Source of the DNA: Spirochaetaceae bacterium
Lineage (GTDB): Bacteria > Spirochaetota > Spirochaetia > Treponematales > Rectinemataceae
Reading direction: 5' to 3'
Assembly: GCA_026418115.1 (NCBI GenBank)
Contig: JAOABY010000008.1
Coordinates: 1 to 57,432 of the forward strand
Length of the DNA: 57,432 bases
The notes below the pieces were generated by a model, which was given only the letters and a program-made list of their open reading frames with translations, was not told the DNA's origin and ran no database searches. Positions 5,940-55,544 of this stretch are shown one piece after another (positions within the stretch are counted from its first letter, which is position 1; each line of letters starts with the position of its first letter). A program made the position numbers and the translations under genes.

Positions 5940-7070
5940 TCACTCTCTGATGGCTACGTTCGTGATCATTGCGCCTGTCGTTCCGACCGGTATTCTATGC
6001 ACTTCTCCATTGAGACCAAAGGCATAGACTGCGGTTGCCCCATCAGGGACATAGGCAATGCCATCCCTGACATTCACATCAGAAGCCCCAAAGCTGTGTC
6101 CTTCGTATGTTACGGTGGTAATACGCGCGGGATCGCCCTGTGGCAGGGAAAGGTTGATGATACTCGTGACACCATACGACACGGCAATCAGATGCTGGGC
6201 ATCGAAGGCTGCCAGGCGGCTTGCAGAGAATCCGGGCTCCACGGCAATTGCAGGCATTCCATCCGTATGGCTGCATGGGATGAAATCGATAGACCCGGGC
6301 AGGGGATTCCATGCAGCATCCCAACCACCGCTGTTTGCGACAAAAACCCCGGGTTCAGCAATACCATCGCCATCACTGTCGTAGCTTCCAGGAAGCAATC
6401 CTGTAGTGCCGCCTGCAGTGGTGGAGAAGGATGCTTCGACTGCCGTTCCTAGTGCATTGAGACGATAGACCTTTCCGTTGCCATTATCAGCGATGAACAC
6501 GCGTGCTTCACTGCCAGTACCTGCGGAAACAACATCCTGGGGGAAGAAGTATTCAGCAAAACCGCTGACTGCCTCGCCGAGTCCGGAGCCAGGATGCTGC
6601 GGATCAAAGGTGTAGACGGCGTTTGCATAAACGCCCGCGTAATCGGCAGAAGTGACAAATCCTTTTCCCGCTGCGGTAATCCAGACATACTGAGCGCTGA
6701 TGCCTTCTCCTATCCGCCTGGCCGCTGGTGCCGGTGCACTCAGATCGACCCAGTAGAGACCAGGCTTGTCGTTTGCCCAGCTTCCTACAGCAATGAAGGC
6801 ACGTGCCCCACGAATGATCATATCTCCCGTTGCATTCTGCATGGTGCTGACCAGTGGCACGGCTGCGGCAGTCATCGTCATTGTATCGATCTCATAAATG
6901 TTGCCATTCTTGCTATCGATCGCGAAAACTGACGCGCGCTGTCCCATTCCGCCGAACAGGTTGCCCAGCAGATCGCATCCCGTGAGCATCAGGGACGCTG
7001 CCACTAAAAACATCATCGCCAGAGCCGGCAGCAGGGCCAGGCGTTTCCGAGGTGATGCACGGTGCATCAT
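5940..7070 (-). CDS. Propeller-like lipoprotein downstream of the BtuB-like receptor (possible BtuG-type B12-capture protein)
   Basis: A lipoprotein signal (basic start, hydrophobic stretch, lipobox LTGC with Cys32) precedes about 340 residues of repeating beta-rich motifs such as FAIDSKNGNIYEID, GLYWVDLS, AVYTFDPQ, GKVYRLNALG and AVYAFGLNGEVHRI. These look like blades of a beta-propeller (YVTN/NHL type). A calcium-like DSDGDG loop is present near residue 235. A strong Shine-Dalgarno (AAGGAGG) precedes the ATG. The gene follows the riboswitch-controlled TonB-dependent receptor on the same strand with a gap of about 115 nt and no terminator. By analogy with Bacteroides BtuG, a propeller lipoprotein that captures cobalamin for BtuB, it may present corrinoids to the receptor. 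That role is inference. Confidence 0.6.
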   Translation of the reverse strand: MMHRASPRKRLALLPALAMMFLVAASLMLTGCDLLGNLFGGMGQRASVFAIDSKNGNIYEIDTMTMTAAAVPLVSTMQNATGDMIIRGARAFIAVGSWANDKPGLYWVDLSAPAPAARRIGEGISAQYVWITAAGKGFVTSADYAGVYANAVYTFDPQHPGSGLGEAVSGFAEYFFPQDVVSAGTGSEARVFIADNGNGKVYRLNALGTAVEASFSTTAGGTTGLLPGSYDSDGDGIAEPGVFVANSGGWDAAWNPLPGSIDFIPCSHTDGMPAIAVEPGFSASRLAAFDAQHLIAVSYGVTSIINLSLPQGDPARITTVTYEGHSFGASDVNVRDGIAYVPDGATAVYAFGLNGEVHRIPVGTTGAMITNVAIRE

Positions 7071-50284: not shown

Positions 50285-50324
50285 TCTGTGATTGCATATA
50301 CTGCTGTTCCACAGACCCGTGACC

Positions 50325-51266
50325 ATGAAGCAGCGTTTGTTCGGCCCGGCCGAGGTACGGAACAATGGCTCATCCCGCGCCAGGGCATCTCTTCCGCTCC
50401 GCATCCTCCGAGCCATCCTTCTGGCCCTGGCAGGGCTGCATCTGGCATATATCCTGCTTACCTCGCTCTTGATACTGGTCTATCGTTTCGCGAATCCTCC
50501 AGGGACCGTGCTCATGGCATATCGTGCCATAGGCTCTGGATGGAAGATTCAGAAACCTATCCCCGTCAGGCTGAAGGAAGTGCCGCTCACCGTCCGTCGC
50601 ATGCTCATTGCTGTGGAAGACGGCAAATTCTACGAACATAACGGCATCGACAGGGAAGCCATCGAACGTGCCCGCAAGCTCAATGCAAAGCTCGGCTATC
50701 CGATGTATGGTGGAAGCACCCTGACGATGCAGCTCGCCAGGACGCTCTTCCTGGTCCCCGAAAAAACCTACCTTCGCAAGTATCTGGAAGTGATTGCAAC
50801 CTTCGAGCTGGAAGCGATTCTCAGCAAGGACAGGATTCTTGAGCTCTATTTCGGCTATGCGGAGTGGGGCAGGGGGATTTTCGGCATCGAGCGTGCGGCC
50901 CGTGTCTATTACGGGAAACCGCTCCGTGAGCTGAACCCCGATGCCTGGGCCAGGCTCATCGCACTTCTGTCTTCGCCGATCAAGTACACACCCGAAACAT
51001 TGCACCGATCCCTGATTCTGAGAGAACGGTACAGCTATCTGGTTCGGCGCTATGTGCAGCCTCTTGCCGAGCTCAAGACCGAGTCCGAGAGCCAGCCTCT
51101 CGGCGACATCGATCCGGCCCGGGAACAGCCTGAGGAAGCATCGATCACTGATGCTGAAACACCTGCGAAGACACAGCAGGAAGCTCCTGCCGAACCTGTG
51201 CAGGAGTCCCAGGAGGCTGCACCACAGGGCAGGCCTTCAGCGGATCGGACAGGTGATGGCGGCTGA
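50325..51266 (+). CDS. mtgA: Monofunctional GT51 peptidoglycan transglycosylase (MtgA-like)
   Basis: After a cytoplasmic basic stretch and one membrane helix (about 30-55), the GT51 domain has AVEDGKFYEHNGIDREAIERA (catalytic Glu in EDxxFxxHxG, near 100), GGSTLTMQLARTLFL, and LELYFGYAEWGRGIFGIERAARVYYGK. It polymerises lipid II glycans. No penicillin-binding domain follows, so it is monofunctional. The last 60 residues are Gln/Glu/Pro/Ala-rich. ATG 50325 is chosen; the in-frame GTG at 50292 lies upstream of a -10-like TATACT (50297-50302). It ends 5 nt from the convergent manA-yaiI gene. Confidence 0.9.
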   Translation: MKQRLFGPAEVRNNGSSRARASLPLRILRAILLALAGLHLAYILLTSLLILVYRFANPPGTVLMAYRAIGSGWKIQKPIPVRLKEVPLTVRRMLIAVEDGKFYEHNGIDREAIERARKLNAKLGYPMYGGSTLTMQLARTLFLVPEKTYLRKYLEVIATFELEAILSKDRILELYFGYAEWGRGIFGIERAARVYYGKPLRELNPDAWARLIALLSSPIKYTPETLHRSLILRERYSYLVRRYVQPLAELKTESESQPLGDIDPAREQPEEASITDAETPAKTQQEAPAEPVQESQEAAPQGRPSADRTGDGG

Positions 51267-51271
51267 CGGCC

Positions 51272-53059
51272 TCACGAACCAGAGGGTCTGGAAGATTTTC
51301 TTGCAGCCATTGTTGCCTGCTGTTTTCCGCGCGCTGCCTTCAGGAGAAGCCGGTCGAGGGCATCGGCGAATCGCTTGGTGTCGGCAGGCGTTCGCATGTT
51401 ACCTCGTGGTGAGGGGCTGGCGATGCCGAGCGCTCTGAGCTCCGCCATGGCATCCCGGATGGAGCGGCGTTCTGCAACGGTTGTCTCATCGAATACATCT
51501 CCCCTGTCGTTCAGCACCAGAAGGCCTTGAGACACGAGTTGTTCCGCGAGCGGAAGGTCGCGCGTCATGCAGAGATCGCCCTGTTGTGCATGCATGATGA
51601 TATAGCGGTCTGTAGAGCCTTCTCCCTGCGGTACCACAATCATGGCGTCTGCTGGAAGATCTGCATGTGGCCGTGTGCCTACGAAGCGCACCGCGAGTTC
51701 CGTGCCATGGACCGGTTTGCGGGAGGTCGCACGTCGCACCAGGAGCGGGCGCAGATCGCGTGGCAGTGAATCTGCATCTATCCAGAGGGTGATGGTCGGC
51801 GAGGCTGGTGCAGGCGCAGGCGCAGGATGGGCTATCCATACTCTGCCTCGTCCATTCAGTTCGATCCATGGTGCTGCACCAGGCACAAACACGCTTGCCC
51901 TTGCCGGCAGTGGCATACTGGAGGGGAGTGAAGGGCACTGCAGCGAGACAGCGCCTTCGGTGCAGAGGAGCACACTGGGCCCTTCCAGCACAATCCGATG
52001 AGTCCCCTCAGAGAGGAGCTCCCGGGCTTCGAGCTGGAACTCGCGCGCGGGGGTGTTCCATTTCCAGATGATGCAGCCATCCTGTTCCTCCCTTTGAGGA
52101 ACCACACGAATCGGGGATGCAGCAGGGTCCAGCACTGCGCAAAGCAGGTCTACATCGACGAACTTGGCAGTGAGCCCGCCACGCACCACATTGTCGGAGC
52201 AGGCCATGATTTCGAGGATGCTACCCTCGAGATATGCATGCATGACGCCTGCCGGTACAAAGAGCCCCTCTCCCGGCTGAAGAAAGAGCTGTTCGAGAAA
52301 AAAGGCTGCAAACTGGCCGGGGTCGCCAGGGTAGTGATGATGAAGTTCCAGCGCAAGTCTGCCTGCCCCAGCATATGCCTCGTTCGAGCTGGAGATCAGC
52401 TCCTCAGCTCTGGCAAGCAGCAGCGCTTCAATCCTGGAAAACGAAGCGCGAGGCCAGTTGAGCAGGGTACGCACCAGTGCGGGTAGATCATCTCGTGACA
52501 TGCCGGCATGCAGCTCCAACCTTTCAGCCAGAGGCGCTCCAAAGAGCGCACTGATTTCCTCAGGTGACCTGAAACCGGCCAATGCTCTGAACGGTGTCAG
52601 TGCCACGGCAAGTTCTGGCTTGTGGTGAGGATCCTTGAACGTGCGGCGGGGATCCAGAAGGGGAATGGTAGCGGCATTCTCCCGTGCAAAGCCACGCTGT
52701 GCAGCCTCGAGCCCTGGATGAACCTGCAGCGAGAGTGGCGCACCGGCAGCCAGTACCTTGAACAGGAAGGGAAGTTCCCGCCACTGCAGCGCAGTCTGCT
52801 CGCCAAGCCAGTACGCCGGCTCCCTGGCTATCAGTGCATCGAGCGGCTCGGTCTGTTGCTCGAGCACCACGGATGATGGAGCCTTGGGATGCGCTCCCAT
52901 CCATACCTCACCTACAGGGATGTTCCCCTCAGTCTCAATTGCAATATAAGGCTCAATGCCTTCTGTCCTGCCCCATGCGTACCGCATGGCTGGATTCACC
53001 AGTCTGTAGGCACATGGTCTCTGAAGCGATGTCTGATGTGACTCTTCATGGTCATGCAT
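51272..53059 (-). CDS. manA: Class I mannose-6-phosphate isomerase fused to a YaiI/YqxD (DUF188) domain
   Basis: Residues 1-412 are a type I phosphomannose isomerase: FLFKVLAAGAPLSLQVHPGLEAA (metal-binding QVHP), DPHHKPELAVALTPF (HKPE) and GLFVPAGVMHAYLEGSILEIMACSDNVVRGGLTAKFVDVDLL. It converts fructose-6-P to mannose-6-P. An Ala-Pro linker (413-421) is followed by about 174 residues of the YaiI/YqxD family: LWIDADSLPRDLRPLLVRRA (family WVDADACP), GDLCMTRDLPLAEQLVSQG and NDRGDVFDE, then RRSIRDAMAELRALG and a basic tail. Both domains are in one uninterrupted frame. ATG 53059 has AAGGA upstream and overlaps dinG by 8 nt. YaiI proteins have a PIN-like fold but no proven activity. Confidence 0.9.
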   Translation of the reverse strand: MHDHEESHQTSLQRPCAYRLVNPAMRYAWGRTEGIEPYIAIETEGNIPVGEVWMGAHPKAPSSVVLEQQTEPLDALIAREPAYWLGEQTALQWRELPFLFKVLAAGAPLSLQVHPGLEAAQRGFARENAATIPLLDPRRTFKDPHHKPELAVALTPFRALAGFRSPEEISALFGAPLAERLELHAGMSRDDLPALVRTLLNWPRASFSRIEALLLARAEELISSSNEAYAGAGRLALELHHHYPGDPGQFAAFFLEQLFLQPGEGLFVPAGVMHAYLEGSILEIMACSDNVVRGGLTAKFVDVDLLCAVLDPAASPIRVVPQREEQDGCIIWKWNTPAREFQLEARELLSEGTHRIVLEGPSVLLCTEGAVSLQCPSLPSSMPLPARASVFVPGAAPWIELNGRGRVWIAHPAPAPAPASPTITLWIDADSLPRDLRPLLVRRATSRKPVHGTELAVRFVGTRPHADLPADAMIVVPQGEGSTDRYIIMHAQQGDLCMTRDLPLAEQLVSQGLLVLNDRGDVFDETTVAERRSIRDAMAELRALGIASPSPRGNMRTPADTKRFADALDRLLLKAARGKQQATMAARKSSRPSGS

Positions 53060-55544
53060 GCTGGTATCCTTGTTCAAGAAATTCCTGGATGCTCCTGCAC
53101 AGATCCTGTACGGGACCCTGTGCAATGCTGCATTCGGGAAGACTTCCGAGGAAAAGCCTGCCGTAGCTTTTCTGTACGATGCGAACATCGAGTATCGTCA
53201 CTACACCTCTGTCTTTCGAATGGCGAATGAGTCTGCCAAAACCCTGCTTGAATCTGATGACGGCTTCCGGTATGGACATTTCGGCAAACGAACTGCCGCC
53301 CCGTGCCTCGACTGCAGCCGCTCTCGAGGCCTGGACAGGTTCGGTTGGGACCTTGAAGGGCAGCTTGGTAATGATGACCTGGGACAGGGTCTCACCTGGC
53401 GCATCGATGCCTTCCCAGAAGGAATCCGTCGCAAAGAGGACGCTGTGAATGTCCTGCCTGAAAGCCTGCAGGAGCTTGAGGCGATCTTCCCTTCCCTGTT
53501 TCATGCAGACAATACCCTGGCGTTCCATGAGCGGCGCGGCATGCTCGAACACGGTGTTCAGCATTTCGTAGCTGGTGAAGAGCACCAGGCTGCGGCCCTC
53601 AGAGGCTGTCAGGAGCTCCGGTATCGCATCCTTGAGGAATGCCGAGTAGGCAGAGCCCGAGTCGGGCGAGGGAGCGGAGTCGGCTATTGCCACAAGGGCA
53701 TTGGTACGGTAGGGAAAGGGAGAAGGATAGCGTTTGGTGCGCGTCCGGCTCGAAGGGTTCTCGAGTCCCACTCTTCCTCGCCACCATGAGAAGGAATCTC
53801 CTATCGCAAGCGTGGCACTGGTGCAGATGCAGGCACGGAGCTGCCCAAACAGACGTTCCTTCAGCATAGGTGCAACCTCGAGAGGTGTTGCGTTGAAAGC
53901 CGTGACAGGTTCCTGGCGAGGCGTGATTTCTTTCTCAATCCAGAAAATGGTGTCGGTTTCACGGCTGGGGTCGAGGCAGCGTTCTGCAAGGGCTGCCTGT
54001 TCGTTCAGCACACGCAGAACGAGGGCCAGTTCCAGCATGTGGTCATCGTTTGCATGATCTTCGGCCACTGTCTCAGCCAGATCCTGGATAGCCTGGATGA
54101 GCGCGGCAAGAGCTCGATGGAAGGAGCGCATGAGGCGGGGCAGCTCGCCATTAAGGGTATAAGCTTGCGTCAACAGCATGCTGCGGGAGGGACTTCCAGC
54201 CTTGGATTGCAGTACTGCAGTCGCCGCCGCATCAAGGGCCTCCATGGCCCGCTCGACAGCCGCAACGCAGGATTCTGCCTTCGTGCGACATTCCTGTGAG
54301 GCACCAGGCAGACTGCCGACGCTGATCAGCAGGCCTGCCTGTCTCCTGCCCTTGCGGCGAAGCAGTCGCTGGAGGATTCTTTTCGTTGAGAGGCGCGACA
54401 TGTACTGGGTAAAGAGGCTGGTCGCACTCTGTTCCAGAGCGTGTGCTTCGTCCAGCACCAGTGTCTTGTAGTCGGGAAGCACGCTGCCGGTAGCTCCTTC
54501 CGCTCTTCGTCGGGTTTCCAGATCAGCCAGAAGCACATGATGGTTGGTGATGACAATCGAGGCTGCCGAAGCTTCCATGCGCACTCTCATGAGGTGGCAT
54601 CGGTTATGCCATGCACATCTCGCTGCGAGACAGGACTCGCTCTCCGAACAGACCCTTCCCCATACCGTATCATCAACCGCTTCCGGCAGATCCGCTCTGT
54701 CTCCCGAGCCTCCATGTTCATCCCATGCAACCAGCATCTTGAGCTGGCGAGAGGATTCCGAGAAAAGGGAGTCTTCCATGAGCGCCTCATCCAGTCGGCG
54801 CTTGCAGAGGTAATTGTTGCGCCCTTTCACCAGCGCTACCGACGGCGCATCCTTGAACAGCCGTACTACAACGGGACAGTCTTTCTTGAAGAGCTGATCC
54901 TGGAGAGGCTTGGTCGCAGTCGAGACAATCACTCTCTCCCTGTTACCGAGAGCCCAGGCGAGCGCGGGTACCAGATAGGCAAAGGATTTGCCAACGCCGG
55001 TGCCGGCCTCTGCGATCAGAATCCCGCCAGTCGAGAGCGTGTCGGCAATATCCCGGGCCAGATCCACCTGTGCTGCGCGTGGTTCGAAATCAGGCATGAG
55101 ACTGGACAGCCTGCCGCCCCTGTCCAGCACGCCTGCTATGTCTTCGCTGTCCAGTTTTTTGAGTTTTTTGGCCTGATGTGGCTCCTGCACCACAAAAATG
55201 GACGTAACGTCATTATTTATTATGTAGCTGCCGATACCTTCTGCTGCCGCACGGGCAGCAACCTCGACATCCGCATCACTGGGGAAGAGGACACCGGAAG
55301 GATGATTATGAATGAGAACCTTGGGTCCCGGTCTGTTCTCGTAGCCGGCTGGTACAGCGCCAAAGCTTCCTCTTGCCAATATATCCACCCTGGTGACCAG
55401 CCCTGATGCGGCATCGAGGAAACCCATCGCGAACAGTTCGCGCCCTTCGATTGCTGCTATAGCTTCGGCAAGTGTTTCTGCTGCTTCAGGAGCAATTTTT
55501 CGGTCTGCAGGAAACGTAGCGCTTGTTTTCGGCTCTTGTGCCAT
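53052..55544 (-). CDS. dinG: DinG-type DNA helicase with an N-terminal RadC/JAMM domain
   Basis: Residues 20-125 form a JAMM/RadC-like domain with the complete metal motif HNHPSGVLFPSDAD (H79, H81, S89, D92: HxH-x7-S-x2-D) and a candidate Glu near 33. The remaining 700 residues are an XPD/DinG superfamily-2 helicase: Walker A AEAGTGVGKSFAYLVPALAW, four cysteines for an Fe-S cluster (YLCKRR, then CSESESCLAARCAWHNRC), the DEAH box VLDEAHALEQ, and motif VI near GFGRLIRHSKDRG. DinG unwinds R-loops, G-quadruplexes and forks. Bacterial DinG proteins sometimes carry a DnaQ-like exonuclease at this end; here a JAMM domain replaces it. The ATG has a -10 box 7 nt upstream. Confidence 0.9.
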   Translation of the reverse strand: MAQEPKTSATFPADRKIAPEAAETLAEAIAAIEGRELFAMGFLDAASGLVTRVDILARGSFGAVPAGYENRPGPKVLIHNHPSGVLFPSDADVEVAARAAAEGIGSYIINNDVTSIFVVQEPHQAKKLKKLDSEDIAGVLDRGGRLSSLMPDFEPRAAQVDLARDIADTLSTGGILIAEAGTGVGKSFAYLVPALAWALGNRERVIVSTATKPLQDQLFKKDCPVVVRLFKDAPSVALVKGRNNYLCKRRLDEALMEDSLFSESSRQLKMLVAWDEHGGSGDRADLPEAVDDTVWGRVCSESESCLAARCAWHNRCHLMRVRMEASAASIVITNHHVLLADLETRRRAEGATGSVLPDYKTLVLDEAHALEQSATSLFTQYMSRLSTKRILQRLLRRKGRRQAGLLISVGSLPGASQECRTKAESCVAAVERAMEALDAAATAVLQSKAGSPSRSMLLTQAYTLNGELPRLMRSFHRALAALIQAIQDLAETVAEDHANDDHMLELALVLRVLNEQAALAERCLDPSRETDTIFWIEKEITPRQEPVTAFNATPLEVAPMLKERLFGQLRACICTSATLAIGDSFSWWRGRVGLENPSSRTRTKRYPSPFPYRTNALVAIADSAPSPDSGSAYSAFLKDAIPELLTASEGRSLVLFTSYEMLNTVFEHAAPLMERQGIVCMKQGREDRLKLLQAFRQDIHSVLFATDSFWEGIDAPGETLSQVIITKLPFKVPTEPVQASRAAAVEARGGSSFAEMSIPEAVIRFKQGFGRLIRHSKDRGVVTILDVRIVQKSYGRLFLGSLPECSIAQGPVQDLCRSIQEFLEQGYQHA

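Follow-up and report, generated by a model that had tools for sequence, protein, structure and literature searches.

A ManA-YaiI fusion gene in a Rectinemataceae spirochaete and its probable origin from an overlapping dinG-manA-yaiI operon

The window analyzed here, a stretch of 57,432 nt from a Spirochaetaceae bacterium (contig JAOABY010000008.1), carries a gene in which a type I phosphomannose isomerase (PMI, ManA) and a YaiI/YqxD (DUF188) domain are joined in one frame (Table 1). It is probable that this is a real, lineage-specific fusion that arose from an overlapping dinG-manA-yaiI operon and that gives one chain with two independently working domains. No published account of a ManA-YaiI architecture was found in the literature searched. 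The architecture is uncommon; both parts are known families, and their union is explained by the operon.

Table 1. Coordinates of the fusion gene, its parts and neighbors in the window, and of the ZapA-ManA fusions in other genomes
Feature	Position	Strand	Remark
ManA-YaiI fusion gene	51272..53059	-	595 aa + stop; single copy in genome
ManA (type I phosphomannose isomerase) part	51830..53059	-	residues 1-410
Pro/Ala linker HPAPAPAPASP	51797..51829	-	residues 411-421; no in-frame start, no ATGA relic
YaiI/YqxD (DUF188) domain	51320..51796	-	residues 422-580
DinG/YoaA-like helicase gene	53052..55544	-	directly upstream; 8-nt overlap with start of fusion gene
Monofunctional peptidoglycan transglycosylase-like gene	50292..51266	+	convergent neighbor; end 5 nt from fusion stop
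ZapA-ManA fusion, genome G055	L129:3826-5382		
ZapA-ManA fusion, genome G097	L148:3978-5609		
ZapA-ManA fusion, genome G061	L132:4607-6256	-	single-contig genome

The fusion gene and its two halves

The ORF check revealed an unbroken frame of 595 codons from position 53,059 to 51,272 of the minus strand, which encodes a complete ManA, a short Pro/Ala linker, and a complete YaiI/YqxD domain. The initial annotation had described a single gene with class I ManA and YaiI motifs and had suggested a search of both halves against protein families. Both Pfam domains scored above their cut-offs, PMI_typeI_cat (PF20511) at residues 19-164 (85.2 bits, cut-off 22) and DUF188 (PF02639) at residues 454-572 (84.9 bits, cut-off 24.3), and the reading as one gene with a genuine fusion was confirmed. 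The motifs were also located where they had been described: QVHP starts at residue 112, HKPE at 146, GLFVPAGVMHAY at 265, TRDLPLA at 499, and NDRGDVF at 517, while WIDAD starts at 426 (given before as near 427). The conserved active sites were intact in both parts when aligned with relatives. The predicted fold of the fusion protein was confident throughout (mean pLDDT 95.4, pTM 0.80), and identity to the relatives from the genus was similar in both halves (ManA 48%-52%, DUF188 46%-54%).

Profile searches of the window genome, which is 96% complete, gave a single match for DUF188 and a single match for type I PMI, and no match for type II PMI (PF01050). The fused gene is, therefore, probably the only PMI and the only YaiI of this genome.

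The manA models span residues 19-407 of the fusion protein, and TIGR00218 scored 196.2 compared to a cut-off of 116.2. For the active site we selected the positions of Salmonella PMI that were mutated in PDB entries according to the entry titles, namely H99, E134, H255, K86, K132, E264, and R274, which the titles of the mutant entries and background on the enzyme mark as metal ligands or catalytic residues. Their equivalents H114, E149, H274, K101, K147, E283, and R293 are all kept in the window ManA, as is Q112, and they are conserved in 58-59 of 59 relatives. The match to Salmonella PMI (3h1m/2wfp) was full-length (residues 18-406) with a fold TM of 0.90-0.91 by target length; in contrast to the Salmonella enzyme, the window protein adds a C-terminal linker and the DUF188 domain.

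YaiI is an orphan family. The window domain matches the family model (PF02639, DUF188, COG1671, UPF0178) well above the Pfam cut-off and keeps every family acid (D428, D430, D484, D495, D501, and D518, all in columns that are invariant in the alignment), but it is part of a fusion and not free-standing. The NCBIfam equivalog cut-off of PRK00124 was missed by the domain (75.6 versus 139 bits, run with the window protein). The model of the DUF188 domain was confident (pLDDT 95.8). A fold search of the PDB with the domain gave no match at E ≤ 0.001, and we dropped the fold search as a proof of a PIN fold. Of the first fold hits, only one, the weak match to Rae1/YacP (E 4e-3, TM 0.36-0.39), was of ribonuclease type; Rae1/YacP is a PIN/NYN ribonuclease (5mq9). 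With the low TM and no significant sequence match, it serves as an analogy only. A weak match to PIN_9 (E 3e-5, below the cut-off) was seen in two relatives, and a sequence search of the PDB for a solved DUF188 structure found none. As the PIN assignment draws on these weak fold and profile matches, we counted this against our main explanation. In PMC12456014, YqxD of B. subtilis is counted with the RNA-binding proteins in sporulation and called PIN-like. The literature on YaiI function held nothing beyond notes on RNA binding and operons; several matches for "DUF188" were set aside, as they actually concerned DUF1887.

The DinG/YoaA-like helicase encoded upstream carries an N-terminal RadC/JAB-like HNHPSG...PSDAD motif, with PF04002 just below the cut-off. 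The N-terminus of the DinG homolog of genome G057 is similar to this segment.

The manA-yaiI pair and its neighbors in spirochaetes

Across the class Spirochaetia, manA and yaiI are normally separate, adjoining genes. In 59 loci of the same order, both genes are neighbors on one strand, and a 4-nt stop/start overlap was present in 43 of these pairs (25 ATGA, 17 GTGA, and 1 TTGA); the remainder comprised 3 apparent fusions and 13 other spacings. By our own count, which covers genomes with a complete type I PMI together with DUF188, the genes adjoin in 63 of the 66 such genomes in families f1, f2, f4, and f5; they also adjoin in 8 of 8 genomes examined in five further families of Spirochaetia. 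Judged from this distribution, manA-yaiI is an old overlapping operon of the class. Genes, order, and neighbors are the same as for the window fusion, but the pair encodes two proteins with an ATGA/GTGA stop-start overlap and the window gene only one. Outside Spirochaetota, we checked for fusions around 22 manA loci, and none of them had a DUF188 gene within 5 kb.

The pair is found behind two different upstream operons: dinG, present upstream in 32 of the 59 loci, and infC-rpmI-rplT-zapB-zapA, as in family f5 with the order infC-rpmI-rplT-zapB-zapA-manA-yaiI. The two contexts could mean that selection keeps manA and yaiI together, and we counted this against our main explanation. Together with the class-wide adjacency and the genuine fusion in two species, they speak for a partnership of ManA and YaiI in one process, for example by sugar-phosphate gating of YaiI or by YaiI control of transcripts of mannose metabolism. 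Several observations argue against such a partnership. All sampled Treponemataceae, as well as members of other families, retain YaiI with no type I PMI linked to it, and Borrelia-like genomes have both genes about 0.4 Mb apart. In loci that lack manA, yaiI lies against dinG or zapA, sometimes with the same kind of overlap: dinG directly joins yaiI with an ATGA overlap in genomes G051 and G045, and in Treponemataceae all 16 loci tested have zapA immediately ahead of yaiI, with an ATGA overlap in G031. Since yaiI stays beside dinG or zapA even where manA is missing, we concluded that it is independent of manA. The 22 non-spirochaete manA genes lacking a nearby DUF188 gene and the fusion of ManA to ZapA likewise stand against the partnership, which we regard as unlikely. 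A more specific version holds that YaiI is a PIN-like nuclease under the control of the isomerase or of its sugar phosphates, and that the overlapping pair, kept over the whole class, hardened into one protein in Rectinema; it is slightly less likely still.

The position of yaiI directly after zapA was seen in the Treponemataceae loci L003-L012, L014, L016, L018, L019, L029, L031, and L174-L176, which include that of a 1.1 Mb genome (G039). When L174-L176 were read further upstream, yaiI lay within an infC-rplT-zapB-zapA cluster.

In three f5 genomes (G055, G061, and G097), at loci without N, the N-terminus of ManA is fused in frame to ZapA. In these rplT-zapA-manA-yaiI operons, ManA is joined to an operon neighbor as in the window, and the linkers of G061 and G097 are rich in Pro, Ala, or Glu; they differ from the window in that a cell-division protein is attached to the N-terminus of ManA and yaiI stays separate. 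The same operon thus yields ManA-YaiI and ZapA-ManA fusions, and fusion, therefore, follows adjacency, so that manA appears to fuse with whichever neighbor overlaps it. The initial annotation had seen in the fusion a hint that the YaiI domain may act on sugar phosphates or nucleotide sugars or be regulated by them. This proposal was not supported; the chief point against it is that yaiI is independent of manA and manA fuses with an overlapping neighbor.

The junction in the window and in related genomes

Codon-level inspection showed no start codon in the reading frame of the linker, as had been noted before. The closest in-frame ATG or GTG codons ahead of the YaiI domain are 382, 390, and 392, all within the cupin part of ManA. 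A weak purine-rich stretch lies upstream of GTG 390 and GTG 392, and Pro/Ala linkers may be exposed, so separate polypeptides could in principle be released from the fused frame by an internal start (GTG390, GTG392, or ATG382) or by linker cleavage. Besides the lack of a start in the linker itself, starts within the cupin part would leave YaiI with a tail of 30-40 ManA residues, and in the second species with a fusion, none of the 40 codons ahead of the domain is ATG. We consider separate products improbable.

This second species is Rectinema subterraneum SURF-ANA1, an isolate (genome G002, locus L032), which has a full-length ManA-YaiI fusion at a locus without N; stop and start are both lost at its junction. 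Relatives mostly have two genes in different frames, which a single indel could join by a sequencing or assembly error, and one such case was found. In the metagenome-assembled genome G006 (locus L033), the apparent fused frame crosses a single N and retains ...ATCATGAGTACCGGTATGGACAAA, while its sister G001 is nearly identical at the junction (...ATCATGAGCGCCGGCATGGACAAA), where ATGA is the overlap of manA stop and yaiI start. Because the frame crosses N and the ATGA junction matches that of G001, G006 probably has two genes that were falsely joined, and we rejected it as a third fusion. Besides the N at position 6224, through which the two genes are probably falsely joined, the contig of L033 has seven other isolated Ns. 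An automatic annotation could take this frame for a fusion. The window junction, by contrast, is free of N, retains no ATGA relic, and offers no in-frame start for a separate yaiI, and in neither of the shifted frames is a stop of ManA followed there by a start of yaiI. Since the junction lacks a stop or usable start and the same architecture is present in the isolate R. subterraneum, the window fusion is genuine, and we dismiss a frameshift or assembly artefact as extremely improbable.

Among the genomes compared, genuine ManA-YaiI fusions were found in two species of one genus only, which gives no support to the initial description of the fusion as stable. Of the two observations that this description had set against itself, separate genes divided by a stop were indeed found in most close relatives, but no frameshift artefact was found in the window. 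The two-gene arrangement is present in 6 of 8 other members of the genus that carry the pair (G001, G003, G004, G005, G008, and G009), with an ATGA or GTGA overlap. A further member, G007 (93% complete), has neither manA nor yaiI; this would fit a joint loss and was counted against our main explanation.

In a tree of ManA plus DUF188, the window genome (G000) and R. subterraneum (G002) were the two genomes that branched deepest within the genus, and a clade of both was not rejected (p-AU 0.129). The tree of dinG plus mtgA placed the window genome, there on a long branch, outside the other eight and rejected this clade (p 0.0006). Two fusion events, or one ancient fusion followed by re-splitting, would both fit these trees.

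The separate yaiI genes of the genus (L091, L093, L094, L095, L097, and L098) encode an N-terminal leader, which is variable, about 17-26 residues long, and absent in other families. This leader may be what remains of an earlier linker, or it may be a linker precursor.

Proposed origin and meaning of the fusion

A lineage-specific bifunctional protein with independent domains is the most likely reading of the window gene. In the proposed course, manA and yaiI, whose usual link is a stop/start overlap of 4 nt, would have come into one frame with loss of the junction. The product would be one protein with a mass of about 64 kDa, and the fixed 1:1 ratio of its halves would replace the translational coupling of the separate genes. 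On this reading, the fusion does not imply any handling or sensing of sugar phosphates by YaiI. The ManA half is expected to interconvert mannose-6-phosphate and fructose-6-phosphate with a bound metal, as a zinc PMI. The YaiI half would act independently, as a PIN-like and probably metal-dependent protein that has an acidic site and is probably directed at RNA. From the kept residues, the confident folds, and the report of RNA binding by YqxD, we suggest that one chain bears two active domains that work independently.

A fusion is easily taken as a proof of shared function, and the comparison of spirochaetes urges caution. The fusion seems to follow operon crowding, and since neighbors merged repeatedly in this crowded operon, the merger of ManA with YaiI says little about the role of YaiI. 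A side result is that YaiI accompanies dinG and rplT-zapA, and not sugar metabolism. For the role of YaiI, a better lead than the fusion is the set of DNA and RNA functions that recur around it (dinG; infC-rpmI-rplT-zapB-zapA; and, for yqxD in Bacillus, dnaG-sigA, PMC2824700) together with the RNA binding of YqxD.
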